From Pseudoalteromonas sp. XMcav2-N (lineage in GTDB: Bacteria > Pseudomonadota > Gammaproteobacteria > Enterobacterales > Alteromonadaceae), in contig NZ_JAMXSF010000002.1 of the NCBI RefSeq assembly GCF_024124545.1, positions 310,001 through 374,000 of the forward strand: 64,000 nt of DNA, written 5' to 3'. The notes beneath the pieces were generated by a model that ran no database searches, was not told the origin of the DNA, and worked only from the letters and a program-made list of their open reading frames with translations. Every line of letters begins with the position of its first letter. Position 1 is the stretch's first letter. Shown here one piece after another: positions 38,362-54,470 of the stretch. The position numbers and the translations under genes were made by a program.

Positions 38362-40827
38362 TTAAAGAGCCTTCCACACCATCGCTTTTCCGGGCTCTTC
38401 ACCGCGAGTCCACCACTTAGCTTCGTATAACTTGCCTTGATAGCTAACGCGATCACCACCGACATACACTTTACTGCGGTCCCAAGGATCAGCACCAACT
38501 GTAGAATCCGTGACATTAACATCGAATGAGACTGTCGTAGTTGCAACACCGTCGGACACGGCAACGGTCACCTGATAAGTGGTGTTCTGAGCAACTTCTG
38601 GCGCAGTAATCGTCGCACTGGCACCCTGGCCGCTTACACTCAAACCGTTGCTTGCTGTCCAGCTATAAGTTAACGCATCGCCGTTAGGGTCTGTAGCATT
38701 AACCTGTACCGATGTGCTGGTATTCTCGGCAAGCGTAACTGCGGAGATAGGCGTTACTACAGGGGCATCGTTACCAGTCGACGGTGCTTTAACCAGCACT
38801 TTAACATTGCGTGTTGTTGTGGCTTCACCATCCGACACTGCGATAGTTAAAGTGTACTCAGTGTCTTGTGTTACTACTGGCGCGGCAACACCCACTGTCG
38901 CACTGGTTGTATTCGTCAGGGTTAGCGCACTTGACGCACTCCAGGCGAACGTCAACGGTTGATTATCAGGATCAGACGCTGTTGCTGTTATATTGACTGA
39001 ACCACCTGACTGAACGGTAACATTACTTTCAACAGATACAACAGGCGGCTTATTAACTGGTACACCACCAGTCAAACCATCATACATAGCGTTCAGAATA
39101 TCGCCATTATCAGCATCGATTTCCCAGGCAAATAATCCACCTAGGTCGTACAGGTTTACATAACGTCCTTTTGCTTCAACAGAGCGAGCACTATCGAAAG
39201 TCAGTAATTTTCCGTTGCTGCGGTTCCAGACGTAAGCAGCTTCTGCCTGCTCGTCGTAGCCAACCTCAAACCCGTTCAGACCTGTGCCATTCGGTCCAAC
39301 TAAATTAGCAGCAATGGCTTTGTAATCCATAATACCCGGCTCCCATACTCCTTCGGAAGTAGAGCCTGAATATTTACCATTACCAGGCGCTGTCATTGGA
39401 TTGCCTGGAATTGTAGTGCTCTGATCCATCACACCTTCCCAGCCACGTCCATACATAGCTGCGCCCATGACGATTTTCTTCGAGTTTACGCCTTGCTGTA
39501 ACAACAGTTGTACCGCGTTATGTGCCGTGTAAGCTGGACCTTTACGTGGTTCACCATTATCATCAACACCGGTACCATTGCACTCATCCTGACTCAGGTG
39601 TGAGCCACAGTACAAACCTGTCTGGTGGCCTGTTACATTGTTCCAGCCACCATAAAAGTCATAGGTCATCGCGAAGATGTAGTCCATATATTGCTGTGCA
39701 GCCTGATAATCTACGTCTTCAATTTTATCGTAGCCAGAACCAATGGCTGAAGTCAGCTCATATGTGCGGCCCGTTTCGGCTTCAAGCTCATCCAGCATCG
39801 CACGTAGCTCCGCCATCAGTGCAATATAAGCCGGACCATCATTGACCGGGTCACCCAAGTCAGGGTTTGGACCGTCACCACCCGGGAATTCCCAGTCGAT
39901 GTCTACCCCGTCGTAGAACTTCCAGGTTTTTAAGAACTTTTTCATCGATGCGACAAATACATCACGATTTGCTTTGTTGGTGAATCCATGAAATGGGTCC
40001 GAGAGCGTCCAGCCACCAACTGATGGTAAGATTTTCAGATCCGGGTAGCGCTGTTTGAGCGCCATTAGCTGGGCATATGTACCACGAATTGGGTCATTTT
40101 GACTTACGCCTGGCAATGTTTTTTGAATTGCGGCCCATGGATCGTGAATCACCACTTCATAGTCAGGTGTTCCTGCACACGCCTTTTGCAATGCACGCCA
40201 GCTGTTGCCATTTTCAATTTCTTTCAGTGATTCATTGGCACCACAAATTGGAATAAAGCCGTATAGCAGGTGGCTTAGGTTCTGTGCCGGGATGTTAGTC
40301 ACGTCAAAGTCGCGGCCATAAATGCCCCATTCTACAAAATAAGCACCTGTTACCTTGCCCGGGATGGTGCCGTTATTGCGGTTGTTAGGGTTAACATCCA
40401 TAGGCAAAGGTTCTAAGTGACCACCGTCTGTGTCTGCTATCACGATCTCTTTGCCTGCACTTCTCGCACAGCCGGTACTATCGCACAGTTCAACATACAA
40501 AGTATGGCGACCGGACTGAGTGTAAGGGAAGGTGATTGTGCCGCTTTTTGTTCCAGCGTCCAATACTCCTTCATTGACTAGCTGATTATCGAAATACACT
40601 TTATAGCTGTCACCACCTGTGCCACTCCATGCATTCCATTTAATCTGAATGTCTACTTTGTCTTTAGCGGTTACCAGGTCTTTGTATGACCCATTGCCAT
40701 CAAGTAAAACATCTACAAAAGAATAGACCTGAGGTTCCCAGCTCAAGCTAGGTGTTGAAGGGGCAGCCAGAACTGATCCGCTCATTAGTGCAAGGCCTAT
40801 TGCCGTGCTGATCTGTTTAATCTTCAT
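38362..40827 (-). CDS. chiA: GH18 chitinase, ChiA type, with two Ig-like domains and C-terminal chitin-binding domain
   Basis: An 821-residue secreted endo- or exochitinase. Signal peptide, then a ChiA N-terminal Fn3-like domain (about 25-130, with SYKVYFDNQLVNEGVLDAG), then a GH18 barrel whose active motif DGVDIDWEFPGG places the catalytic Glu at 313. The barrel's later residues MTYDFYGGWN are as expected. Two PKD/cadherin-like repeats follow (NITATASDPDNQPLTFAW, QVNATDPNGDALTYSW), then a CBM5/12 domain (VYVGGDRVSYQGKLYEAKWW). It is the last gene of the chitin operon and shares the CBM ending with the LPMO. Confidence 0.97.
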   Translation of the reverse strand: MKIKQISTAIGLALMSGSVLAAPSTPSLSWEPQVYSFVDVLLDGNGSYKDLVTAKDKVDIQIKWNAWSGTGGDSYKVYFDNQLVNEGVLDAGTKSGTITFPYTQSGRHTLYVELCDSTGCARSAGKEIVIADTDGGHLEPLPMDVNPNNRNNGTIPGKVTGAYFVEWGIYGRDFDVTNIPAQNLSHLLYGFIPICGANESLKEIENGNSWRALQKACAGTPDYEVVIHDPWAAIQKTLPGVSQNDPIRGTYAQLMALKQRYPDLKILPSVGGWTLSDPFHGFTNKANRDVFVASMKKFLKTWKFYDGVDIDWEFPGGDGPNPDLGDPVNDGPAYIALMAELRAMLDELEAETGRTYELTSAIGSGYDKIEDVDYQAAQQYMDYIFAMTYDFYGGWNNVTGHQTGLYCGSHLSQDECNGTGVDDNGEPRKGPAYTAHNAVQLLLQQGVNSKKIVMGAAMYGRGWEGVMDQSTTIPGNPMTAPGNGKYSGSTSEGVWEPGIMDYKAIAANLVGPNGTGLNGFEVGYDEQAEAAYVWNRSNGKLLTFDSARSVEAKGRYVNLYDLGGLFAWEIDADNGDILNAMYDGLTGGVPVNKPPVVSVESNVTVQSGGSVNITATASDPDNQPLTFAWSASSALTLTNTTSATVGVAAPVVTQDTEYTLTIAVSDGEATTTRNVKVLVKAPSTGNDAPVVTPISAVTLAENTSTSVQVNATDPNGDALTYSWTASNGLSVSGQGASATITAPEVAQNTTYQVTVAVSDGVATTTVSFDVNVTDSTVGADPWDRSKVYVGGDRVSYQGKLYEAKWWTRGEEPGKAMVWKAL

Positions 40828-40861
40828 TACTTTCTCAACCTTATTTACATGTTATATCCAA

Positions 40862-40873
40862 ACCCCGGAGGGT
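40862..40873 (-). other. Intercistronic hairpin between LPMO and chiA
   Basis: Short stem accc (40862-40865), gggt (40870-40873) around cgga, with no T tract. It may affect mRNA processing or stability rather than end transcription. Confidence 0.35.
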
Positions 40874-40908
40874 GATTTATTGGTACTGCTTAAAACTGAC
40901 TCGTCTGG

Positions 40909-42345
40909 CTAAAGTGCTTTCCAGACCTGGGCTTTGCCGGGCTCTTCGCCACGGGTCCACCACTTGGCTTCATAATTTTTGCCCTTGTGCGAGACTTTAT
41001 CCCCACCTACATAGGTGTCAGAGGCTTGCCACTTTGGATGAGTAGACACCGGAATATCTTTAACCGTCACGCTTAGGTCTCTGGATGTGGTTAGCTCACC
41101 ATCAGAAACTGCAATTGAAACCGTATACTGAGCGTCTGCCGATACCTCTGCGCTTTGCAGTGTGACGGTTGCACCACCGCCGGTCATCGTAAGTCCGGAT
41201 GGGACTGACCAGGTGTATGTCAGCTCAGTTTGCTCATCATCAAAGGCATGTACATGAACCTGAACTTGGCCATTTTCATCCATTACAATCGGATCGGGCT
41301 GATGAACCGTTGGCGGTGTATTCGGTGCTTTTGGCACGATTGTCAGGTTATAGGTAAAGGCAGTATCTGTTACGAACACTTCGTTACCCAGTAAGTTGGC
41401 TTCATCAAACACCACGTCACCGTTTGTTTGTTTCACACCAACCCGGACATCACTGGCATACGTAGTATTAAGCTGACCTGCCAAAACACTTGCCCAACTT
41501 GACTGATTTTGCTCTGTCACAGCTAAAGAATGTTTCACTATTTCCTGACCATTTTGGTCAAATACCCTTGCCCAGATCAGGTCTCCAACATTGGCTGACT
41601 GGCCTCTGGTGACAAAATAGCCAGCTGAGATCCAGTCATTTGGTTGTGTATCTGTCACGATATTTATGTCGCTACAGTTATAGAAACCCTCACCCACGAC
41701 ATCGTTTCTCTGCCAGCGAGTATAAAGAATCGCATTTCCGCTTCGGCCCTGAGGGATCTGAATGGTCATCTCATATATGCGTTTTCCGTCCGGGTCTTTA
41801 ACAAAATCGACGTTGCCTACTTCAGTGATCAGATCCAGGCTGCCCCAGGTCATCACGTCTGTCGCAGGATTAAATCCCGGCTTGGTTAGATAAAATTTCC
41901 AGAAACTCGGATTATGTGGGGTTGTGGCATGAAATCGTATGGCCAGCTCCCCCGCAGCGTTTGGTCTGACTTGAGTCGTCTGCCAGTCCGCAGAAGGTAA
42001 GTTCATGCCGCGTTTTTCGTGCGAACCAGCTGCGCACAAGGTGCCATCAGGAATATTTTTTTCTACCGCCTGTTGGTTATTGTAATCGGGCGTATTGACT
42101 GCGAACTCATGCTCCTGAATAAACTGAACATAACCAGATTCCAGGTAAGCCGCTCGACAAGCCGCATTGGGAATATTGGAACCATCTTCTGGCCACCAAT
42201 AGCCCCCCTGGTCTTCACAGATAGCCTGTCTTGCCATAGGAAAATCCATATAGCCATGACTGGCAGCCAGTTCGCTGTAACTCAAAGCGCTCAACACTAG
42301 TGCACCAATTGCAGTCTGTTTCGAAAAAGATGTATATGTCTTCAT
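40909..42345 (-). CDS. AA10 lytic polysaccharide monooxygenase with chitin-binding domain
   Basis: A 478-residue secreted copper enzyme that cleaves crystalline chitin oxidatively. The signal peptide ends before His30 (AAS/HGYMDFPMARQ), which becomes the N-terminal copper ligand; His144 in FHATTPHNPSFW is the second ligand. After the AA10 domain (about 30-215) comes a GbpA-domain-2-like module, then a PKD-like domain (VHVHAFDDEQTELTYTWSVP) and a CBM5/12 ending (YVGGDKVSHKGKNYEAKWW). It lies between two chitinases and would open crystalline surfaces for them. Confidence 0.96.
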   Translation of the reverse strand: MKTYTSFSKQTAIGALVLSALSYSELAASHGYMDFPMARQAICEDQGGYWWPEDGSNIPNAACRAAYLESGYVQFIQEHEFAVNTPDYNNQQAVEKNIPDGTLCAAGSHEKRGMNLPSADWQTTQVRPNAAGELAIRFHATTPHNPSFWKFYLTKPGFNPATDVMTWGSLDLITEVGNVDFVKDPDGKRIYEMTIQIPQGRSGNAILYTRWQRNDVVGEGFYNCSDINIVTDTQPNDWISAGYFVTRGQSANVGDLIWARVFDQNGQEIVKHSLAVTEQNQSSWASVLAGQLNTTYASDVRVGVKQTNGDVVFDEANLLGNEVFVTDTAFTYNLTIVPKAPNTPPTVHQPDPIVMDENGQVQVHVHAFDDEQTELTYTWSVPSGLTMTGGGATVTLQSAEVSADAQYTVSIAVSDGELTTSRDLSVTVKDIPVSTHPKWQASDTYVGGDKVSHKGKNYEAKWWTRGEEPGKAQVWKAL

Positions 42346-42361
42346 AACTTGCCTCTTTCAT

Positions 42362-42377
42362 AGGGGCCGAAGCCCCT
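42362..42377 (-). other. Intercistronic hairpin between the two upstream chitin genes
   Basis: Perfect stem aggggc (42362-42367), cgaa, gcccct (42372-42377). On the minus strand the loop is UUCG-like, very stable. No T tract follows, so processing or stabilisation is more likely than termination. Confidence 0.45.
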
Positions 42378-42397
42378 GATCCTAGTTAGCTAATTGG

Positions 42398-45300
42398 TTA
42401 CAAACTGCAAACCTTGGTGTAATCAGAGCTTACTGATGGTTGCTTATTGCTCCACCACTTCGCTTTGTATACACCGTTGCCGTCGATGATGAGGTCTCCC
42501 TGGGCAGCATGGGTTCCCTTGGGAAACTCAGGGTAAACACTGATCTGTGAGATAGGCACGCCTTCACAACTGGTGATAGGTCCGCCGTTACCATCACCCG
42601 GTTTCGCGTCCGGCAGTTTCGGATACTCGAACTTAAATGCGTAACGCTTGCCATCTTTTTCAGCGACGAAATTAACCGGACCTGTAATTGGCATGTAGTA
42701 CATCACTTGTGCATTTACGGTTTCACCTGGTGCGAATGACTTAGGAATATTTCCCCACTCATCTACCAGTGTGATTGAAAAGCGGTGGAATTCATTTTCA
42801 AATCCGCCGATATTGTTACCGGCTGCGTTTGAACGATTGACCTCAACCGCCATACCAAGTTTTTCCTGAGCATTCCAGTTAGACTTGAAGATTGCAGATG
42901 TTGCAACCGGCACATCAAAGGTGATCTTCGCGCCGGACAGGTCAATGGCTGAGTTATTGGTAAATGAGAACGTTGGCGCGATTGGATAGTTATCATCACC
43001 CAGCGGGAAGTCTTTTGCTGTAAAGCTGACGTCAACTGATTCCGCAGGTACCTGGAAGCTTACATCACCTGGGTGGATATCGTATGGCGCACCCGACTGA
43101 TTAAACTTGTTATAGGCTAACGTTGTCAGGCTTGAACCCATAAAGTACTCACCCTTTGCCGCGTCGTAATCGAAATCCCCGGCCAGCTCCCAGAACATGA
43201 TGCCGCCAAGCCCATTGTTGATGACATAATCGACCTTGGTCCCCATAGACTCTTCATCTTCAATCGACAAGAATACTTTCTTCTCGGCATTCCACAGCCA
43301 GGGGGCAACTGCCACAGAGTCATAATGACGGGCATAGGTACCAGTCAAGCGGTCTGCAGGATCTGTGTCCGGCGTCAGGCCATAATCGGCCAGATAGCTG
43401 GCAACAATACCTGATTGCAGGTTCTTAACATGCCACAATGGGTTAGAACCCGCTGGTACTTCAAGGCCTACGTCATTTTTGTCATGCCAAAGATTGTCAA
43501 TACCTACGGCACCGTTACCACATTTATTCTTTTCACCTTTTCCGGTACCTGGTGGACAGTTCGCCTGGTCCGGGAATGCCGCCTGACCCCAAAGCCCGTT
43601 TGTACCACCTTGGACATTCTGGAAACCTCGGGTGTAGTAAGGAATACCGATATTGATACGACCACCGGACAAAGCGCCACGGAAATATTTAACAGCCCAG
43701 TCTGTATTCAGGTAACCAATACCTTCAAATTCAGCGGTACCATAGACATTCCATGCTTTGAGTTCAGAATCTTCACCTGTGTCAAACAAAGAAGCATTGT
43801 GGCCTACATGCTGGTTCCACGCCCCATGTAAGTCGTAAGACATGATGTTGACGTAATCCAGATATTTAGTGACCTGGAATGTCTCCATACCACGTAGCAA
43901 GTAGCCAGAAGAAGGTGACGCAATTGTTAGCATGTAGTGCTTACCATCTTGTTGGCCTGCTATATCAAGCTCTTCACGCAAGCGCTTCATCAGCACCTGA
44001 TATGAGGCATTCAATCCTGCGCGTAATGCGTTTGAGATTGGGAAGTCATCCGGGTGGCCTGCATCGTTCATTGAAGTTGGGTATTCATAATCAATATCGA
44101 CACCGTCAAAACCGTAAGTACGGATAAACTCCACAGCACTTGCCGCAAATGCGTCAATGCCGGCCTGATTCACACTGCCATCGGCATTAGTGGTCATGGT
44201 GTAAAAACCACCACTGTTGACACGCTTACCATCGCTGCCGAAATAGCCACCAGTTTCAGCCCAGCCGCCAACCGAGATCAGTGTTTTTACGTCAGGATAT
44301 TGTTTTTTGTACTTGTTCAGCAGGTTAAAGTGACCTTTATATGGCAGTGCAGGATCCATTTCTGCGCCAGCCTCTCCAGGCCACTCCATATTCGTTGCCG
44401 GATTACCAGCAGCCGCCGGGTCGCCAATTGATACCTTGTTGTTTGCATCAACGTGCGCAAAGGCGTAGTTAATATGCGTTATTTTGTCCCATGGAATGTC
44501 ATTAACCAGGTAGGATGGTTGGCCATTTGCGCCATTTCTCCAACTGGTAAAGTAGCCGATCACGCGACGAGGGTGGTCATTGCCCATTTTTTCTCGTCCG
44601 TTTACGTCGTAGATAGTACAGTAAGGCGTGTTCACGCCAGGAGTCTGGAACAAGCCCTCTGGTTTACAGTCATCACGCCCCCCCTGCCCCTGCTCAACAA
44701 CTGTCAGTGTCTGAGACACACTTGACGTTGCCCCTTTGTCATCTGTAACCGCTAGGGTAAAGCTCACGGGACCAAGTTGCTGAGCGGTCCATGTGTGATC
44801 GGTCGCGGTGCCATTTGTAGTAACAACGTCCACACCATCTGCCGTAAACGTCAACTTAGTCACCTGACCGTCGACATCGCTTCCAGACAAGCCGAAGACA
44901 ACCTGAGAGCCAACAACGAGTTCAGCTGGCTGGCTCTTTATTACTAACTGTGCTTCCGGAGCCTTATTGCCTGTATCAGCTGGCTTAACAAGGATTTGGC
45001 TAGTCAATACATTAGATGCAGCCCCCTTATCATCATACGCCGTTGCACTGATGCTGTGGCTACCAACACTGGCACTCCACAGCGCATCAAACATATCCGC
45101 AGTTCCGCTTACGTCAGTGGCAACCAAAGCACCATCGACAAAGAACTCAACCTTGTTTATGGTGCCATCGGAGTCGACTGCTTTCACTCTTATGGCAACG
45201 CTGTCATTTTCAGCGAACTCAGAACCAGCAACAGGCTGTAAGTTACTGGCGACAGGCGGCTTATTTTCGACAACGCTGTCACACTGGCCCAGCCAAGTCC

Positions 45301-45523
45301 ATTCTTGCCAGTCGCCTGAATTGGTTGCGGGCTCAGAACGTGTCCACCAGTTAGCTTCATAAGCATTGTTATTCTGCTCGACTTGCTGACCGCCCGTGTA
45401 TGCTTTACCTGATTCCCATGGGTTAAGCCCGGTACAATCATATGCGTTAGCCTGTGTTGAGCCGATCGCAATGGCGATTGCGCTGAGCTGCATTGCCATC
45501 TTGAATTTGTTTCTCGTTTTCAT
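42398..45523 (-). CDS. GH18 chitinase with N- and C-terminal chitin-binding domains
   Basis: I place the start at ATG 45523 (MKTRNKFKMAMQLSAIAIAI, a signal peptide), with GAAGAAAG just upstream; a longer frame to 45640 adds no family sequence. The 1041 residues hold a CBM5/12 (LNPWESGKAYTGGQQVEQNN), two Ig/PKD-like domains, a GH18 barrel with DGVDIDYEYPTS (catalytic Glu480), a chitinase C-terminal domain and a second CBM at the end (GDLIIDGNGVYKAKWWSNKQ). It is the first gene of the three-gene chitin operon. Its Tyr-for-Trp in the motif points to a different subclass from chiA. Confidence 0.95.
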   Translation of the reverse strand: MKTRNKFKMAMQLSAIAIAIGSTQANAYDCTGLNPWESGKAYTGGQQVEQNNNAYEANWWTRSEPATNSGDWQEWTWLGQCDSVVENKPPVASNLQPVAGSEFAENDSVAIRVKAVDSDGTINKVEFFVDGALVATDVSGTADMFDALWSASVGSHSISATAYDDKGAASNVLTSQILVKPADTGNKAPEAQLVIKSQPAELVVGSQVVFGLSGSDVDGQVTKLTFTADGVDVVTTNGTATDHTWTAQQLGPVSFTLAVTDDKGATSSVSQTLTVVEQGQGGRDDCKPEGLFQTPGVNTPYCTIYDVNGREKMGNDHPRRVIGYFTSWRNGANGQPSYLVNDIPWDKITHINYAFAHVDANNKVSIGDPAAAGNPATNMEWPGEAGAEMDPALPYKGHFNLLNKYKKQYPDVKTLISVGGWAETGGYFGSDGKRVNSGGFYTMTTNADGSVNQAGIDAFAASAVEFIRTYGFDGVDIDYEYPTSMNDAGHPDDFPISNALRAGLNASYQVLMKRLREELDIAGQQDGKHYMLTIASPSSGYLLRGMETFQVTKYLDYVNIMSYDLHGAWNQHVGHNASLFDTGEDSELKAWNVYGTAEFEGIGYLNTDWAVKYFRGALSGGRINIGIPYYTRGFQNVQGGTNGLWGQAAFPDQANCPPGTGKGEKNKCGNGAVGIDNLWHDKNDVGLEVPAGSNPLWHVKNLQSGIVASYLADYGLTPDTDPADRLTGTYARHYDSVAVAPWLWNAEKKVFLSIEDEESMGTKVDYVINNGLGGIMFWELAGDFDYDAAKGEYFMGSSLTTLAYNKFNQSGAPYDIHPGDVSFQVPAESVDVSFTAKDFPLGDDNYPIAPTFSFTNNSAIDLSGAKITFDVPVATSAIFKSNWNAQEKLGMAVEVNRSNAAGNNIGGFENEFHRFSITLVDEWGNIPKSFAPGETVNAQVMYYMPITGPVNFVAEKDGKRYAFKFEYPKLPDAKPGDGNGGPITSCEGVPISQISVYPEFPKGTHAAQGDLIIDGNGVYKAKWWSNKQPSVSSDYTKVCSL

Positions 45524-46026
45524 ACTTTCTTCAACCTTTACCGTTTTATTGATTAACATTTTTAAAGTAAAGCTAACATAGAATTTGAGTACGTCAACGT
45601 AAGCATGGCTACTTTTTAATCTCACAAACGAAAAAAACAACCCTTTTTCATTACCAATTATTCAAATGAATGGACTTTTTCTCACATGGCCCTGCTCTTT
45701 GTTAAGTGAGTTAAATTCATATATGACAGTTCGTATACTCCCCTCTATTGCTATAAGAACAACCAGTTAAGTCAAAAAAAGAGACATGAAAAAGAAAAAC
45801 TTATGGTTTCGGATAAGTTATATTAATCCGAATTGTATCCATAAAAAAATTTGACAACGGAATATCTTATACGTATTAGTTATATGCAAATCAGACAAGA
45901 TCAGCATGTATACATCTAGTTAACGTAAAGGTTAACAGGTGGGTGGGTGATACAAATATACTCTTTTTAGGGACAAACTAACGTTAAAACAAAGGTGGCG
46001 TATAGGTTACGGGAACGAGGGCCTGT
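45524..46026. other. Promoter region of the chitin operon
   Basis: About 500 AT-rich bases between a histidine kinase stop and the first chitinase. It contains the inverted repeat listed at 45808-45832 and two gttaac motifs near 45919-45934. No gene is visible, and no box pair can be assigned with confidence. Confidence 0.45.
45808..45832. promoter_or_regulatory. Inverted repeat, possible operator of the chitin operon
   Basis: Perfect 7-bp arms ttcggat (45808-45814) and atccgaa (45826-45832) separated by 11 AT-rich bases, about 285 bases upstream of the first chitinase. The spacing fits a dimeric regulator. No regulator gene adjoins. Confidence 0.35.
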
Positions 46027-46995
46027 TTATTTGACATGGTTTACGGGGATAGCAACGGTCACTGTAGTACCCTCACCCTTTGTGCTTTCAACATTAATAG
46101 TGCCACTGTGTTCAGAAACGATGCCATATGCAACAGCCAATCCCATGCCCGTCCCCTGACCCACAGGTTTGGTCGTAAAGAATGGTTCGAAAATGTGCGC
46201 TATAGCGTCCTGAGCTATACCGGTACCGTTGTCTATCACTTCTATAATAATTTGGCTACCAACCTTTTTGACATGAAGCTCAATCGCAGGAGAAGCACAC
46301 ACGCCATCTGATTTAGCTTGCTCACAAGCATATTTAGCATTCATTAATAGATTAATGACGACTTGATTAAGCGCAGCCAGATTGCAATAGCTCATTGGAA
46401 TGTCGGATTTCTTTACACTTAACTCTATATGTTTGAGCTGATTTGCAAGCAAGCCCAGAGCACTGTCGATGGCCTCAGTCATATCCGCCATGACAAATTC
46501 GTTGTTTTTAGGTCTGGCAAAATCAAGCAAGCTGGCAACTATAGTTGCAATGCGCTGGCAACCATCCTGACAATCATCGATTAAATCCTGGGCATCTTCG
46601 GCGAAAAAACACAGCTGATACTGAGACTCTAATTGCGCAAATGTTTCTTTGAACTGGTCTTCATCTAACGCATTCTTTGCAAACGACTGACTGACCTTGA
46701 TTAAGTCAGAGACACCTTTTGCCACTTGTCCAAGGGTACCTATATTACCGTTTATATATGCAAGCGGATTATTGATCTCATGGGCGACGCCGGCAGACAT
46801 TACACCCAGGGTGGCCATTTTCTCGCTCTGCAGTATCGCAGCGTGCTGCCGCTTTAATTGCGTCAGATTTGCTTCCAGCTCCTGATTTGCAAGGTACAAA
46901 GAGCGAGTTTTATCTTCCAGCAGGGTCTCTAGTTCGTCCCGAGCCTGCTTCTCTCTATGATATGCTTTATAGTACTCGTTGCTTTCGTTCGACAT
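46027..46995 (-). CDS. Cytosolic histidine kinase paired with H-NOX
   Basis: A soluble kinase of 322 residues from ATG 46995, supported by GGAGGG seven bases upstream (a longer frame to 47031 is less likely). N-terminal coiled coil (EKQARDELETLLEDKTRSLY), HisKA with His72 in SAGVAHEINNPLAY, then HATPase_c (VVINLLMNAKYACEQ, GQGTGMGLAVAYGIV). There is no membrane or sensory domain, fitting control by the H-NOX protein encoded 98 bases upstream in the same direction. H-NOX-linked kinases (HnoK) are inhibited by NO-bound H-NOX. Confidence 0.9.
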   Translation of the reverse strand: MSNESNEYYKAYHREKQARDELETLLEDKTRSLYLANQELEANLTQLKRQHAAILQSEKMATLGVMSAGVAHEINNPLAYINGNIGTLGQVAKGVSDLIKVSQSFAKNALDEDQFKETFAQLESQYQLCFFAEDAQDLIDDCQDGCQRIATIVASLLDFARPKNNEFVMADMTEAIDSALGLLANQLKHIELSVKKSDIPMSYCNLAALNQVVINLLMNAKYACEQAKSDGVCASPAIELHVKKVGSQIIIEVIDNGTGIAQDAIAHIFEPFFTTKPVGQGTGMGLAVAYGIVSEHSGTINVESTKGEGTTVTVAIPVNHVK

Positions 46996-47093
46996 ACTTA
47001 CCCTCCGGATCACTGATAGAGCTATATACACATATCAGGCTCTCAGTCGCTTCTACTATATCAAACTCCCTGAGCCTTACTATTATCGTCTTA

Positions 47094-47636
47094 TTAAGAC
47101 AATATATTGACCACAAAACGACAGTGATCATCCCCTTCGTGCATGCAATTGGTGTGAGATATTTCAATTTGTTTGTTGTAATGATCCGCAGCCCCGTAAA
47201 TGAGCCCCTCAGCACAAAAGCATAGTTTTCGGGGTGAACGATAATCAACGAGAATTTTACCTTCATCGATGACCTTAGCATCTATTTTGGGCAGGTTAGG
47301 TTCATCGTAGAGCTTTGCCACCTCTACGTGGATCACACTGTCTATGGCAAGAATTAACTTCTCAAAAGTATTCAACGGTTCAAGCACGGTGTGATGCTTA
47401 GCTGCCAATGAACCAAATAAAAACCGTCCAAATACGCCTAGCACATCTGCTAATGGTAAAGCCATTTTTTCCGCGACGCCATTTGCCAACGCAAACAGCT
47501 CTTCATCGGGATAGGATACAGCTGAGACATAACTGCGGTGTGCCGGACTATGCTCGTCTAATAACGCATTCCATTCAGCCATACCCAGATTTTCTACAAC
47601 CAACTCCTCTAAACTACGAAATATTATGCCTTTCAT
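47094..47636 (-). CDS. hnoX: H-NOX heme nitric oxide sensor
   Basis: A 180-residue single-domain heme protein (HNOB family). MKGIIFRSLEELV is the family start, His103 in VIHVEVAKLYDEPNLP is the axial heme ligand, and YRSPR at 132-136 is the conserved YxSxR motif that binds heme propionates. Near-identical length to other bacterial H-NOX. It would sense NO and regulate the adjacent kinase. It is divergent from the response regulator gene, 109 bases apart, so one promoter region serves the whole set. Confidence 0.95.
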   Translation of the reverse strand: MKGIIFRSLEELVVENLGMAEWNALLDEHSPAHRSYVSAVSYPDEELFALANGVAEKMALPLADVLGVFGRFLFGSLAAKHHTVLEPLNTFEKLILAIDSVIHVEVAKLYDEPNLPKIDAKVIDEGKILVDYRSPRKLCFCAEGLIYGAADHYNKQIEISHTNCMHEGDDHCRFVVNILS

Positions 47637-47745
47637 TTTTTAATCCTTAGCTAACGTAATTTAACAGCAAACTCGCTGCAGCAATTGTTATAAAACAAAG
47701 TTTAGACTAATTTTTATATTATCTATTGCTTTAACTTAATGATAT

Positions 47746-49080
47746 ATGGCTGAACACGATCCCGAGCAAGTAACGATTGACCCACCCGAAGGCCCTATTC
47801 GGGTATTGTGCCTGGATGATGAGCCTAGCGTTCTAAAGGTGCTCAGAAGAACACTGGGTTATGCGGGCATGGAGGTCTCTTTGTTTGAGTGTGGCGAACA
47901 AGCGTTACAGGCACTTGCTGAGCATGACTTTGAGGTTATTATTTCAGACATGCGTATGCCTGAGATGGATGGCGTGGAGTTTCTGACAAAAGCCAGGCAA
48001 GCTTCTCCGCAATCACAACGCATATTATTGTCCGGCTATGCTGATATGGACTCTACTATCGCAGCCATTAATGAAGGCGGAATACACAATTTTCTTCAGA
48101 AACCCTGGCAAAATGAGGCGCTCATCCATGTTATTAAAGATGCAGCAGAAAAGTATCGTCTCAAACATTACAATACCGCGCTTCAAACTGCGATAAGCAA
48201 TCAAAATGAACAGTTAAAAGCATTAAACGGAAACCTTGAAGAATTAGTCGAAAAGCGAACCGCTCAGATCCGCACCGTGCTTCGCCAATTAGAAACAGCC
48301 AACAAACGCGAGCAGGATGAACACAAGGCAACTGTAGAACTACTCTACAATTTCATCAATGCAAATCCCTACATTGATGCGGATATGGCTAAACAGATTG
48401 CCAATCTTAGTGGCTTAATCGCACAAAAGCTGGGTCTGGGCGATAACGTGGTACAACTGACAAAAATGGCCGGCTATCTTGCCCAGGTCGGGTTGCTTGC
48501 AATGGATCCAGTACTGTACGACAAACCGCTTGAGCAGCTCAGCTCTGAGCAACGAAAGCTGTTCTTTACACATCCAGCCACCGCACAACTAATGTTGATG
48601 CCAGCTCAGCACCTGAGCGATGTGGGTGAAGCGATATATCACCAGTTTGAAAAATATAATGGTCAGGGGATCCCGAAAGGGCTTAAAGGCAAACAAATTC
48701 CAATTGGCGCACAAATCCTCGCTGCAGCAAGAGATTATGTTGAAAATCTTCTAAAAAACCAGGGAGACAATGAGACCAGGCGTGGGCATGCACTTGAAAT
48801 TATTAAAATGTATAGCGGATCGTTCTACCACCCAAAAGTAGTCTTAGCACTGGAACAAGCAATTCAAGCCAACACCTCAACAGCACACCAAGTTGGGTCA
48901 ATGAACATCATTAATGCTCAAGCACTCAAACCGGGGATGGAACTTGGACTGGCTATCCATAGCCATAAAGGGATCATGCTGTTACCTAAGGGGCACATTT
49001 TCACGGAAGCAACTGTTGCCAAACTACAACAGTTAGAAACACAAAAACCTTCCCCATTTAGGATCCTGATTAAAGCCTAG
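47746..49080 (+). CDS. Response regulator with degenerate HD-GYP domain (HnoD-like)
   Basis: A 444-residue regulator. The receiver domain ([13 protein letters not shown]) has Asp68 in [13 protein letters not shown] coiled coil (about 150-195) leads to an HD-GYP domain whose metal residues are lost: the HD pair reads AQ at 246-247, the usual HHE reads HQF at 299-301, and GYP reads GIP. A PilZ-free tail follows. It therefore cannot hydrolyse c-di-GMP. In Shewanella, HnoD is such an inactive HD-GYP response regulator downstream of H-NOX/HnoK. No HnoB EAL protein adjoins here. Confidence 0.9.
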
Positions 49081-50627
49081 CGCTTAAAACGTATCACCAG
49101 CTCGTACATGTCATTTGCCACTGTGGTTAGCTCCTCACTGATGACATGCATTTCATTAGAGCTGCTTACACTGGTATTCGCCAGCGTAGCAATATTAACA
49201 ACTTGCTGGTTAATGTCCTCAGAAACAGCTGCCTGTTCTTCTACAGAAGTGGCAATTTGCATGCTACTGGCGCTGATTTTTTCTATCAATTGGTAAATGC
49301 CTTCCAGTTTCATAGAAGACTGAGAAAGCTGCTCTATCCCCTGGCGAGATTCATCCTCGCCTCGTTGCGCTATGAACTCGGCGTTTTGCGTACTCTGTGT
49401 CAACTGTTCGATTATTGCATGGATCTCTTTCGTTGATTCCTGGGTTCTTTGCGCCAGGTGGCGTACTTCATCTGCAACAACGGCAAAGCCCCGCCCCTGC
49501 TCCCCGGCCCTAGCCGCTTCTATTGCCGCGTTCAATGCAAGTAAATTAGTTTGCTCAGCGATTTGTTCAATTATCTGCGCAGCTTCTGCTATCTTGGAAG
49601 TTTGTTTGGCAACACCTAGCACCGAGTCTTTGATATCAACGACCGTTGCACCAAGATTCTCGATTGAAGCGCGGGTTTCTTCAGAGCTTCGTGCGCTTTC
49701 CTGTGCGAGAATAAGCACCCCTTTTGCATCTTCCGAGCTAGCCTGAACGCTATGCGACACTTCATTGATTGTAGTAGCCATTTCATTCATAGCAGTGGCA
49801 ACTTGCTCGGTCTCAAGCTGTTGCTTAGTCAGGCACTCGGTAGTCTCAATACTCTTAGAGTTGCTAATTGTTGCACCACTGGCAACCCCTTTAGCGGCAA
49901 ACTCGATACGAGTGATAATGGTGTCCAGATGCGCCCGCTCGCTAAGCAACTTGACGTGCAGTTGAGCCATCTTACCCGTCCAAGGTGAGTAAACCTGAGT
50001 TGCTATATCGTCACAAAAACTATGAGACATCACCTTATCAATTCGACTTAGCTGCTCGTTATCTCGATACGTGTTGTATGCAAATAATGCCAGTGTATTG
50101 ACAACCAACCAGGCAAACCCGATTGCTTCGCCTGCAGACATATAGAGTAAAATCGCAATAACCACAGCTAACGACGACCAGATCGAACGCAGCTTAGGCA
50201 ACTTAAATCCGTCACGTTGTCCCGACTTAACCCGTTTGTATAACGCTTCTGCCCGCTCAACAGATGCACGGTCCGGACAGCTACGAACGGATTCATAGCC
50301 TATAATTTTCCCGTCTTGCGTCATCGGCGTGACATACGCATTTACCCAGTAATGGTCGCCGTTTTTACAACGGTTCTTTACTAAGCCCATCCAGGGCTTA
50401 CCCGCTTTAAGCTGATCCCACATCGTCTTAAATGCAAGTTCTGGCATATCTGGGTGGCGGACGAGATTATGAGGTTGTCCTATCAGTTCTTCTTTGGAAT
50501 AGCCACTGACTTCAATAAAGTGTTCATTACAATCCAGTATCGTTCCTTTCAGGTCTGTCACTGAAATAAGCCGGGTGTCTGCGGAAAAACGCTTTTCCTG
50601 ATTCGTGACGGGGTGGTTTAATCGCAT
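49077..50627 (-). CDS. PAS-domain methyl-accepting chemotaxis protein, Aer-like
   Basis: A 516-residue receptor. An N-terminal PAS domain ([38 protein letters not shown]) is followed by a hydrophobic hairpin ([20 protein letters not shown]) and a signalling domain with [20 protein letters not shown]. This is the layout of the energy/redox receptor Aer, in which PAS binds FAD. It has no periplasmic domain. Its end overlaps the response regulator gene end by 4 bases on the opposite strand. Confidence 0.92.
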
Positions 50628-50845: not shown

Positions 50846-51868
50846 GTGCCAAAGCTTTCTGCAATAACTGATAATCCGCACGAGAACAGATTTAATGAAA
50901 AAATCGGTGTTCTGGTAACTAACCTGGGTAGCCCTGACGCACCGACAGCCCCTGCATTAAGAAATTACTTAAGAGAGTTTTTGTCAGATCCACGTATCGT
51001 CGAACTTCCCAGAGCACTTTGGTGGTTGATACTACATGGTGTGATTCTGAGGATCAGACCGAGCCGTTCAGCAAAAGCCTACTCAAGTATCTGGACAGAA
51101 AATGGGTCACCATTGGTTCAGATCACTCAAGATCAGTGTAATAAGCTAAGCGCATTATTAAAGGAACAACACTACGAACATGTCGAAGTTGTGATGGCGA
51201 TGCGCTATGGCAATCCTTCTATAAAAAGTGGTCTTGAAGCACTCCGTGAAAAAGGGATCACTAATATTGTTATTTTTCCCCTCTACCCTCAATATTCGAG
51301 TGCAACGACAGGTTCAACATTTGATGCGGTAGCTAATGTACTCAAAACATGGCGCTGGGTACCAAGCCTGAGTTTTATAAACGGATATCACAAACAACCG
51401 AGTTACATTACGGCTTTAGCTAATTCGGTACAGGAACATATTGATAAGCATGGATTACCTGAGAAGCTGCTTTTTTCTTATCATGGCACACCTAAGCGGT
51501 TTTTAGATAGTGGGGACCCGTATCACTGCTTTTGCCACCAGACCACGCGTCTCGTTTGTGAGCAACTCAAGCTTGATAAAGACAGAATCATGACGACTTT
51601 CCAAAGCCGATTCGGACGTGAGGAATGGCTGCAGCCCTATACCGACGTCACACTCAAAGAACTGGCAACGAAAGGCGTTAAAGAAGTCGCTATACTGAGT
51701 CCTGCTTTTAGCGCAGATTGCCTTGAGACGCTCGAAGAGCTGGAAGAGGAAAACCGCGAGTACTTCCTGGAAGCGGGTGGTGAAACCTACCATTATATCT
51801 CGGCACTCAACGACAGAGATGATCATCTCTCCGCATTATTGGACGTACTAAAGCCGTACTTAAAGTAA
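50846..51868 (+). CDS. hemH: Ferrochelatase
   Basis: A 340-residue enzyme inserting iron into protoporphyrin IX, the last step of heme synthesis. Start is GTG at 50846 with AAAGGAG about seven bases upstream. Motifs: GVLVTNLGSPDAPTAPALR at the N-terminus, LLFSYHGTPKRFLDSGDPY with the catalytic His, and FQSRFGREEWLQPYTD. Length normal. Its neighbours are all sensory genes, including the heme-based H-NOX and a PAS receptor. Confidence 0.97.
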   Translation: MPKLSAITDNPHENRFNEKIGVLVTNLGSPDAPTAPALRNYLREFLSDPRIVELPRALWWLILHGVILRIRPSRSAKAYSSIWTENGSPLVQITQDQCNKLSALLKEQHYEHVEVVMAMRYGNPSIKSGLEALREKGITNIVIFPLYPQYSSATTGSTFDAVANVLKTWRWVPSLSFINGYHKQPSYITALANSVQEHIDKHGLPEKLLFSYHGTPKRFLDSGDPYHCFCHQTTRLVCEQLKLDKDRIMTTFQSRFGREEWLQPYTDVTLKELATKGVKEVAILSPAFSADCLETLEELEEENREYFLEAGGETYHYISALNDRDDHLSALLDVLKPYLK

Positions 51869-51899: not shown

Positions 51900-54470
51900 T
51901 TAATGTTGCTGTGACGATTTACTGATATACATCAGTTCATCGTTAAACACCTGACCGGAGTTAAACTCTTGTAATAACCTCAGGCAAGCAGATAATGGCT
52001 GAGCCGGGCTGTAGTAAAAGCCCTGTATATGATGACAACCCAGTTGTTCCAGCATAGTCAGTTGACTCTGAGACTCTACACCTTCAGCAATAACTTTAAT
52101 ACCCAGCTCTTCAGCCAGATTAAGCAAGCAGCTAATCATCACCTTTTTGTTTCTGTCTGCCATTAGACTATCTACAAACGACTTATCTATTTTCAAGTAG
52201 TCAACCTGATTTTCTATCAGGTGACTAAGAGAGGAGTAACCAGTACAAAAGTCATCAAGCGCGATTTTCACGCCCTGCTCTCTTAATTTAGAAAGTAGTT
52301 CCCAAGTGTAGCGGTTCGTCGCCATAGACTCAGTAACCTCAAGCGTGACTTTCTCAAATGGAACCCCGGCGTTGGAAATGGCTTCTGTAACGAGTTTGAA
52401 TTGATCGTTGCTCGTCTTGAACTCATTAACCGATCGATTAATAGAAATACTGACATCGTCATACCCATGCAGATGTAATGCTTTGAGATCCTGACAGGCT
52501 TTTTCCAACACAAACTGCCCTATCATATGAATTAAGCCAAATTCCTCTGCAATGGGAATGAAGGTTCCGGGTGATACCATACCTTGTTCGTCATCGAACC
52601 ACCGTACCAGCGCTTCAAACTTAACGATTTTTCTGCGCTGTACATCGACTATCGGCTGATAGTAAACAGTTAGTAAGTTTGCTTTCAGTGCCGCTTTAAG
52701 CTTGTCCTTGAGCTTGACCTTATTCAGATAAGCATTTTGGATAGCGGCATTATGTAAAGCAACATGCCCTCGATGAGTTTTCTTCGCACTCTCCAATGCA
52801 TGTGCCGCGTTGCGAATAAATTTGGCAGCGGTAATTCTGCCTCTGTTTTCCAGTTGTGCTATCCCGGTACTTGCACTGAGTTCAACAGTCAAATCATTGA
52901 AAACATATGGTTGTTTAATCTTATCACTGAGCTTTTTGGCAACCTGCAAGGCGCTTTTTACGTCAGTGTTGTCAAGTAAAATAGCAAATTCATCGCCGCC
53001 GTAACGGGATATCGTATCATTCTCTCTGATGCCGTTTCTAAGCCTTTTTGCGACCGATACGAGGACTTTGTCGCCGATTTCCGGACCGTAGATATCATTT
53101 ACTTCCTTGAAGTGATCAAGGCCAATAAACAACAAAGAGCAAGGTGTATGCAGACTGCGACTGGCAGATATTTTTTCTTCAACTATATCGATAAAACAGC
53201 GCCGATTCAGCAATGCGGTCAGGGGCTCATGGTTTGCATAAAAGGTCAGCTGCGCCTCATTGCGCTTCCACTCAGTAATGTCGCGGAAAATGGCAACATA
53301 ATTCAGTATTTCGCCTTGTTCATCTTTCACCAGACTCAGCGTTAGCTCTTCGGGAAAAATCTGACCGTTTTTACGACGGTTAAATATTTCTCCTTTCCAG
53401 CAACCGGCACTCATCAAGCTGTTCCACATTTTATGATAAAAGTCGTTACTATGCTGACCTGAAGACAGTACTGATGGATCGCGTCCCATCAACTCATGAC
53501 CGGTATAGCCCGTCAGGCGCTCAAATGCCCTGTTCACCATGATGATCTTGTTGTCCCCATCGGTGATCATGATGGCCTCTGTAGCATGCTCGAACACGAC
53601 ATTGGTTAGTTCCAGCTGCTTATTCAAAGAATAAATATAGGTAACATCTTGCACCGTGGCGCTAAATACACGTTCGTCGCGCTGCTCTTCACACTGTTCA
53701 ACACGACCAATGATTCTGTATAGACCTCTTAAATTAGTGCGTTTTTTGTGAGTGACATTCACATCAATATAATCTAAATGTCCGGTCCTGAGCTTTTGGA
53801 TAATCACTCTGAGTCGTTTTTGATCCGCTTCAGTTAAACAATCAGTAAAGTCGTCTAACGTTAGGGTTTCTTCTCTGTGTTGTAGTAAACGGCGCATTTC
53901 ATGACTAAACACATGCTTGTCTCGGCTGATATTCCACGTCCAGGAACTCAGCTTTGCTATACGTTCACCTTTTGCCAATTGCTTTACCAGGATCTGCTGT
54001 GCTGCAATCTCTAGGTTATGATTGAGCTCAGCCCCGACTAGTAAGCTCAACTCTCTGAACCAATGGCGGTCCTCGTCACTCACCTCTACTTTTTCATCAA
54101 ATAGACAGACCATAATCCCTATCGGCTTATGGTCGAGCGCACGTAATGTGACGCCCAAATAGCCATCAATATCAAATATTTTCAGGATTTCATCTTCCGC
54201 GTACATCTGCTGCAGGTTACAGCTAATGGAGCACACGCCCTGACTGGTTTTAGCATCGTTGCAGGGCGTTCCTTCAAGATCATAGATGATATCATTTGAC
54301 CTTTTCCCATCGACAGAATAAGCAACCGTTTTAACACGCGTGTCCGCATCAATGAATTTGCCAATCAAGCAATGCGCCGGTTTGAACTTCTCATAGATCA
54401 AATCGAGCGCGAGCTCATAGCGCGCCTCGCTGCTGCACAAATTGTAAAAAGTACTGAATGAAAAAGTCAT
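51900..54470 (-). CDS. GAF-PAS-GGDEF-EAL c-di-GMP protein
   Basis: An 856-residue soluble protein. Order: GAF-like domain (about 1-160), two PAS domains (about 165-275 and 290-400, the latter with AIMITDGDNKIIMVNRAFER), GGDEF (SRYGGDEFAILL, intact), EAL (KFEALVRWFDDE). EAL catalytic residues seem present: LEVTES, DDFCTGYSSL, YLKIDKSF, AEGVES. It may thus synthesise or degrade c-di-GMP, probably mainly one of them. The sensory input is unknown; the GAF contains several Cys (CNDAKTSQGVCSISC) that could bind metal or be redox active. Confidence 0.93.
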   Translation of the reverse strand: MTFSFSTFYNLCSSEARYELALDLIYEKFKPAHCLIGKFIDADTRVKTVAYSVDGKRSNDIIYDLEGTPCNDAKTSQGVCSISCNLQQMYAEDEILKIFDIDGYLGVTLRALDHKPIGIMVCLFDEKVEVSDEDRHWFRELSLLVGAELNHNLEIAAQQILVKQLAKGERIAKLSSWTWNISRDKHVFSHEMRRLLQHREETLTLDDFTDCLTEADQKRLRVIIQKLRTGHLDYIDVNVTHKKRTNLRGLYRIIGRVEQCEEQRDERVFSATVQDVTYIYSLNKQLELTNVVFEHATEAIMITDGDNKIIMVNRAFERLTGYTGHELMGRDPSVLSSGQHSNDFYHKMWNSLMSAGCWKGEIFNRRKNGQIFPEELTLSLVKDEQGEILNYVAIFRDITEWKRNEAQLTFYANHEPLTALLNRRCFIDIVEEKISASRSLHTPCSLLFIGLDHFKEVNDIYGPEIGDKVLVSVAKRLRNGIRENDTISRYGGDEFAILLDNTDVKSALQVAKKLSDKIKQPYVFNDLTVELSASTGIAQLENRGRITAAKFIRNAAHALESAKKTHRGHVALHNAAIQNAYLNKVKLKDKLKAALKANLLTVYYQPIVDVQRRKIVKFEALVRWFDDEQGMVSPGTFIPIAEEFGLIHMIGQFVLEKACQDLKALHLHGYDDVSISINRSVNEFKTSNDQFKLVTEAISNAGVPFEKVTLEVTESMATNRYTWELLSKLREQGVKIALDDFCTGYSSLSHLIENQVDYLKIDKSFVDSLMADRNKKVMISCLLNLAEELGIKVIAEGVESQSQLTMLEQLGCHHIQGFYYSPAQPLSACLRLLQEFNSGQVFNDELMYISKSSQQH

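Follow-up and report, generated by a model that had tools for sequence, protein, structure and literature searches.

A catalytically degenerate HnoD-family regulator beside H-NOX and HnoK in a Pseudoalteromonas genome with no detected HnoB or HnoC

What does a response regulator act on when its HD-GYP domain has lost the catalytic residues and the enzyme it is described to inhibit has no detected ortholog in the same genome? Plate and Marletta reportedly described an S. oneidensis network in which HnoX and HnoK are connected to HnoB, HnoC and HnoD, and Arora and Boon are said to have dealt in 2012 with an H-NOX, a kinase and a response regulator of P. atlantica (Patl_1532-1534). In the available text of one source, the effect of the latter three on c-di-GMP is given as unknown (PMC8738867); compared by gene list only, they resemble the locus studied here in being consecutive H-NOX, kinase and regulator genes, deposited as Pseudoalteromonas. 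For Shewanella, the available parts of three sources state that HnoK phosphorylates HnoB and HnoD, that NO-bound H-NOX stops HnoK, and that HnoD has no phosphodiesterase (PDE) activity but suppresses HnoB unless phosphorylated (PMC6335343, PMC8846402, PMC8738867). The excerpted reviews thus cast HnoD as a fine-tuner acting through inhibition of HnoB, although one of them assigns it an inactive DGC domain, which contradicts another (PMC6335343, in part).

The locus lies in a stretch of 64,000 nucleotides from Pseudoalteromonas sp. XMcav2-N (NZ_JAMXSF010000002.1, positions 310,001 to 374,000), hereafter the window, in a genome of 5.70 Mb and 44 contigs. On the minus strand, the H-NOX gene is followed by hnoK; hnoD is divergent, with 109 bases between the hnoD and H-NOX starts (Table 1). 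An initial annotation had recognized an H-NOX with heme ligand His103 and a YRSPR motif, followed by a soluble kinase, and both readings hold. The sensor scores 203 bits against PDB 2kii over residues 1–178 (phmmer), and both of its motifs align with the H-NOX of PDB 2kii/4u99; it combines the HNOB fold, the proximal histidine and YxSxR, and heme and NO binding are predicted from its sequence. A genome-wide search returned it as the only H-NOX gene. The soluble-looking HisKA/HATPase kinase encoded with it groups with hnoX-linked kinases in a tree. Its frame is listed from a GTG codon, but this start is doubtful, and the methionine at 46995, where its relatives begin, is likelier and yields 322 residues. 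An alignment of 29 kinases places the phospho-acceptor histidine in AHEINNP (His72 of 322), of which HEINN agrees with a phosphatase motif quoted in the available text of PMC12570481. A distant second type of H-NOX, 27–29% identical to that of the window and accompanied by a kinase of 574–577 residues, occurs in G001, G005, G012, G025 and G032 (loci L153, L150-L152, L154, L155).

Table 1. Features of the hno locus and its surroundings, in window coordinates
Feature	Position	Strand	Characteristics
HnoK, soluble histidine kinase	46027..47031	-	HisKA + HATPase_c
H-NOX (HnoX), heme NO sensor, 180 aa	47094..47636	-	PF07700 115.7 bits, above cut-off; proximal His103, YRSPR 132-136
Palindrome TTAGACTAA	47702..47710	.	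between divergent hnoX and hnoD, 44 bp before hnoD ATG; candidate operator
HnoD/NosR-family response regulator	47746..49080	+	receiver (Asp68) + coiled coil + HD-GYP domain (HD_5) without catalytic residues
GAF/PAS-GGDEF-EAL protein	51900..54470	-	GAF, PAS, GGDEF and EAL families matched; EAL-domain signature stretches present; candidate HnoD partner

The regulator is a full-length member of NF053512 (‘response regulator c-di-GMP phosphodiesterase, NosR family’), which it matches over positions 1–422 with 485 bits, above the curated cut-off of 400. Its receiver carries D24, D25, Asp68, S96 and K119. Alignment to HD-GYP proteins encoded in the same genome (four extracted rows, of which three cover the HD pair) shows A246-Q247 in place of HD, G308-I309-P310 in place of GYP and Q300-F301-E302 in place of HHE. 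The initial annotation had noted the first two changes correctly, but had taken the third triplet for HQF; it is QFE, with both histidines lost and the glutamate retained. The protein therefore lacks the HD pair and the HHE motif of an active HD-GYP phosphodiesterase, and instead shows the HnoD combination of a receiver with an HD-GYP domain devoid of catalytic residues. Its earlier assignment to the inactive Shewanella HnoD type is further supported by the shared NCBI family and by 37% identity over 414 residues to HnoD of S. decolorationis (34–37% for the S. decolorationis and R. baltica homologs). A structure prediction from a two-row alignment reached a mean pLDDT of 55.9, with values below 50 across most of the HD domain, and was not used.

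In S. decolorationis and R. baltica (L134, L135; located via a Shewanella-type H-NOX and the family search), the HnoD homolog is divergent from genes for an HTH-receiver, a receiver-GGDEF-EAL and a receiver-HDOD protein. We named the S. decolorationis genes HnoC, HnoB and HnoD by their fit to the S. oneidensis descriptions in the available text of PMC6335343; the naming is our own. As had been noted initially, neither HnoB nor HnoC adjoins the window locus. This says little by itself, since H-NOX (VCA0720) and HnoB (VC1086) of V. cholerae also lie at separate loci, according to part of a review, and it is the genome-wide search, suggested along with that observation, that counts. Models of three rows each, with G020 as a row in both, were run on 60 genomes including that of the window, scoring up to 55 candidates per genome for HnoC and up to 20 for HnoB. 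Among these, the HnoB model found full-length matches in G020 (1127 bits), G014 (543) and G028 (542), followed by a match of 341 bits to the GGDEF-EAL part only, and the HnoC model found G020 (340 bits), G028 (258) and G014 (252), likewise full-length, followed by one of 89. In the window's genome, no HnoB ortholog was found among the up to 20 candidates scored, the best match (338 bits) being confined to EAL/GGDEF positions 258–647, and no HnoC was matched at E 1e-20 among the 55 of 136 candidates scored; by these searches, the complete set of HnoX, HnoK, HnoB, HnoC and HnoD is not present. Nor does this genome contain a FIST (NosP-type) gene, or a relative of the second, receiver-HDOD gene beyond a 95-residue HDOD match. 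As no HnoB ortholog was found, we call the regulator an HnoD homolog and do not claim that it acts on HnoB.

This situation is not special to the window's genome, but prevails in the sampled part of the genus. Among 36 Pseudoalteromonas genomes, 32 encode a full-length HnoD-family regulator (29 above the cut-off and three below it, at 399, 396 and 323 bits), and 29 of these 32 have no HnoB and HnoC among their scored candidates. HnoD was found together with HnoB and HnoC in S. decolorationis, in R. baltica and in three Pseudoalteromonas genomes (G014, G020, G028). Four of the 36 (G001, G011, G021, G022) lack an HnoD-family match on a par with the others, and the best match in S. xiamenensis (G060), at 125.6 bits, lies below the cut-off, which counts against a universal retention of HnoD. 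In a plasmid collection, the closest HnoD matches were all second replicons of Pseudoalteromonas.

Since neither HnoB nor the repressor HnoC was found here, and most of the relatives studied are in the same position, HnoD probably acts on another partner. The account we consider probable is that of a reduced Hno network, in which the target of HnoD is not HnoB but a different c-di-GMP enzyme, with a GGDEF-EAL protein as the most plausible choice. H-NOX would bind NO and control HnoK, HnoK would phosphorylate HnoD at Asp68, and HnoD, having no catalytic site, would act on the c-di-GMP enzyme through protein-protein contact. If the sign is the same as in Shewanella, NO would shut off HnoK and leave HnoD in its unphosphorylated, inhibiting form, so that c-di-GMP would rise and biofilm would be favored.

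The genome offers 39 EAL matches as a pool of possible partners. The first candidate among them is the nearby GGDEF-EAL protein, which had been put forward from the start as a possible partner without a receiver domain; indeed, a domain-family search matched none in it. With up to 16 candidates considered per genome, it finds matches at E 1e-120 in 15 of the 60 genomes, its own included. A tree of the 26 close HnoD orthologs separates clade 1 (12 members, including that of the window) from clade 2 (14 members), with support values of 85/82 and 90/78, and among the same candidates the GGDEF-EAL protein occurs in 12/12 genomes of the former and 0/14 of the latter, being only partly matched in G014 and split by a stop in G023. 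Outside clade 1, it is found in G009, in G011 and, weakly, in G050. The genes for this protein and for HnoD are also close together in G033, G029 and P. xiamenensis, and within ~16 kb of each other in G024 and G035. As this co-occurrence follows a single deep split of the tree, it may reflect shared ancestry, and is suggestive of a partnership only.

The surroundings of the 26 close hnoD genes differ widely. Three, namely those of the window, G033 and G005, have hnoD beside the genes for H-NOX and HnoK; in eight, another receiver gene precedes the H-NOX–HnoK pair (with an HDOD domain in two of three scanned, receiver only in the third, G027); and in twelve, HnoK and HnoD are encoded without H-NOX at the locus. 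In G014 and G028, hnoD stands alone, with hnoX-hnoK and hnoC-hnoB elsewhere, while in G020 it is accompanied by a FIST sensor (NosP operon) and another kinase; there, hnoC-hnoB flanks hnoD on its other side, and hnoX-hnoK is at a separate locus. Nine of the twelve kinase-only genomes (G006, G007, G008, G010, G015, G019, G026, G030, G031) have no H-NOX gene anywhere in the genome, and a FIST gene is found only in G030 among them; the remaining three encode a distant H-NOX (27–29% identity) with its own kinase of 575–577 residues. In the HnoD and HnoK trees, G005, which has H-NOX, nests within the kinase-only group, which implies either repeated loss of H-NOX or a single regain. If HnoB and HnoC were inherited, they were lost at least three times, and HnoD was kept each time. 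We also considered that they were gained by transfer in G014/G028 and G020, in which case fewer losses are needed; the copies of G028 match those of Shewanella best. A UPF0149-family gene follows hnoK at loci mostly without H-NOX (L163:3186-3836, L070, L072, L088, L090; 82 bases downstream in P. shioyasakiensis), and possibly provides an alternative input.

HnoD and HnoK are under purifying selection. All seven pairs that yielded a value gave a dN/dS of 0.03–0.08 for HnoD, although several dS values above 1.5 make these ratios rough and the comparison of the window with G033 gave none because dS was saturated. In kinase-only, HnoB-less genomes, the ratio was 0.03–0.07 for HnoD (six pairs) and 0.04–0.13 for HnoK (a value for five of the six). 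Two pairs between H-NOX-less genomes gave 0.052 and 0.066 for HnoD and 0.102 and 0.134 for HnoK, which argues that HnoK and HnoD are in use without H-NOX. In the pairs compared, HnoD also changes most slowly, with, for example, 94% identity versus 63–70% for HnoK and 78–83% for H-NOX in two pairs of loci with an additional receiver gene.

The persistence of HnoK and HnoD without HnoB and HnoC, and in nine genomes even without any H-NOX gene, together with the slow change of HnoD, would also suit a role unrelated to PDE inhibition. HnoD could be a receiver-HD scaffold in its own right that, for example, activates a cyclase, sequesters phosphoryl groups from HnoK or binds a target unconnected with c-di-GMP; cyclase activation is likewise allowed for by the authors of the Burkholderia NosR study, in its available text (PMC12570481). 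However, homology to the HnoB-binding HnoD favors c-di-GMP enzymes, and no target is known for such a role, which we find doubtful, albeit worth keeping in mind. We see less reason to believe that the place of HnoB is taken by a strongly diverged EAL response regulator encoded elsewhere. A 402-residue, two-domain receiver-EAL protein does exist on contig C44 (L112:6274-7482), as do, by overlap of domain matches, several receiver-GGDEF-EAL proteins. Yet the 402-residue protein has no GGDEF part and never ranks in the genome's top six when the three HnoB proteins are used as queries, and the HnoB model splits orthologs (at least 542 bits) from background (at most 341), making this reading improbable.

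It is more improbable still that HnoD is an active phosphodiesterase with an unusual metal site. Members of NF053512 are called ‘c-di-GMP phosphodiesterase’ in NCBIfam and ‘HD domain-containing phosphohydrolase’ in RefSeq, and His276, Glu302 and Asp330 are conserved in all 26 close orthologs. The same 26, however, have all lost both HHE histidines, the first being Gln (Q300) throughout, and have A/S-Q/E in place of the HD pair; the joint conservation of D68 and Q300 in 26/26 is not a chance pattern. We extended the alignment to 35 members, adding six more distant ones from the same genus, one from another family and those of S. decolorationis and R. baltica, and leaving out of the counts a receiver-only match (L101, G050) and two fragmentary HD-GYP loci of the window's own genome (L063, L064). 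Here, Gln replaces the first HHE histidine in 34 members and Leu does so in one, the glutamate is kept in 35/35, and no member has an intact HHE motif or both of its histidines; Asp68 is kept in 34/35, the exception being G017. Judged from this alignment, the loss of the catalytic residues is old and fixed, and the hydrolase names in the databases are therefore misleading. This agrees with the available descriptions of the Shewanella homolog as lacking PDE activity (PMC6335343, in part) and of Burkholderia NosR as likely inactive (PMC12570481, in part). Least credible of all is a decaying network with HnoD on its way out: various lineages lack HnoB, HnoC, the second receiver gene or, outside the window's genome, H-NOX, four genomes have no comparable HnoD and the member in G017 has no receiver aspartate, but the low dN/dS of HnoD in 7/7 pairs and the retention of D24, D25, D68, K119 and open frames in 26/26 speak against it.

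The reduced network may also differ in its regulation. Strict matches to the palindrome between hnoX and hnoD, written as TTAGWCTAA, are not enriched overall, with 16 in 944,483 bases versus 14 in shuffled sequence, and only their position is striking: 11 of the 16 lie just upstream of hnoD, while 39 of 20,000 random 120-mers contain one. A strict match is present at nine of the ten clade-1 loci whose sensor operon is divergent (G023 has a one-base variant), and also in G020 and P. xiamenensis, but before hnoD it occurs at 0/12 kinase-only loci and not in G005, G014 or G028. By contrast, a direct repeat, TGTC-N5-TGTC, is found 55–76 bases before hnoC in all five HnoC-bearing genomes examined (including L134 and L135) and before hnoX at three of three Shewanella and Rheinheimera loci (L119-L121), which makes it a candidate operator of HnoC. 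It occurs in 11 of 100 hno promoters scanned versus 88 of 20,000 random 200-mers, where the five-base spacer was chosen post hoc, after viewing the sequences, and a six-base version matched nothing relevant. The repeat is absent from the window locus and from the hnoX promoters of G014, G028 and G020. Compared to the Shewanella network, the window's genome thus shares H-NOX, the soluble kinase and a degenerate receiver/HD-GYP regulator of the same family, but lacks HnoB, HnoC and the second receiver gene, has hnoX-hnoK beside hnoD, and lacks the TGTC repeat in the promoter.

Going beyond the locus itself, we tentatively propose, with less confidence than the reduced network as such, that HnoK and HnoD form an ancient core, around which HnoB, HnoC and the NO sensor can be exchanged. 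Pseudoalteromonas HnoD would then mainly control another c-di-GMP enzyme, the pair would in nine species answer to a signal not sensed by H-NOX (in eight of them, not by FIST either), and the loss of HnoC would have been accompanied by an operator change from the TGTC repeat to TTAGWCTAA.

The principle is known: Burkholderia NosR is already in print as a catalytically dead HD-GYP regulator that acts after an NO-sensing kinase and for which no PDE partner is given (PMC12570481, in part). As far as the available text of that study goes, the NosP-NosK-NosR system of B. pseudomallei resembles the window locus in its degenerate NF053512 receiver protein behind an NO-controlled soluble kinase and in the unnamed PDE partner. 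It differs in its sensor, a FIST protein (NosP) rather than H-NOX, and in the altered motif, where HD-GYP has become HG-GTP in NosR and AQ-GIP here; its authors regard NosR as likely inactive and leave cyclase activation possible (PMC12570481). Our search of the open-licence literature, which did not extend to key papers under subscription, returned no paper on HnoD without HnoB. If HnoD is indeed kept by strong selection without HnoB, HnoC and even H-NOX, its description as a fine-tuner is incomplete, and Pseudoalteromonas would be a clean setting in which to study the role of a dead HD-GYP regulator on its own.

Further genes recur around these loci. Tail to tail with hnoD, the window encodes an Aer-like PAS-chemoreceptor (49077-50627), and a 39% identical Aer-like chemoreceptor adjoins the hno cluster of R. 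baltica (L135:4387-5964). The ferrochelatase gene hemH (50846-51868) lies near hnoD here and at the loci of 16 relatives, including 14/14 of clade 2, where H-NOX is mostly missing from the locus. On the other side, hnoK is adjoined by chitin-use genes (38362-45640), two of them GH18-type and one for a chitin-binding LPMO-like protein, all named by reading the sequence; a GH18 gene adjoins hnoK in P. xiamenensis, too.
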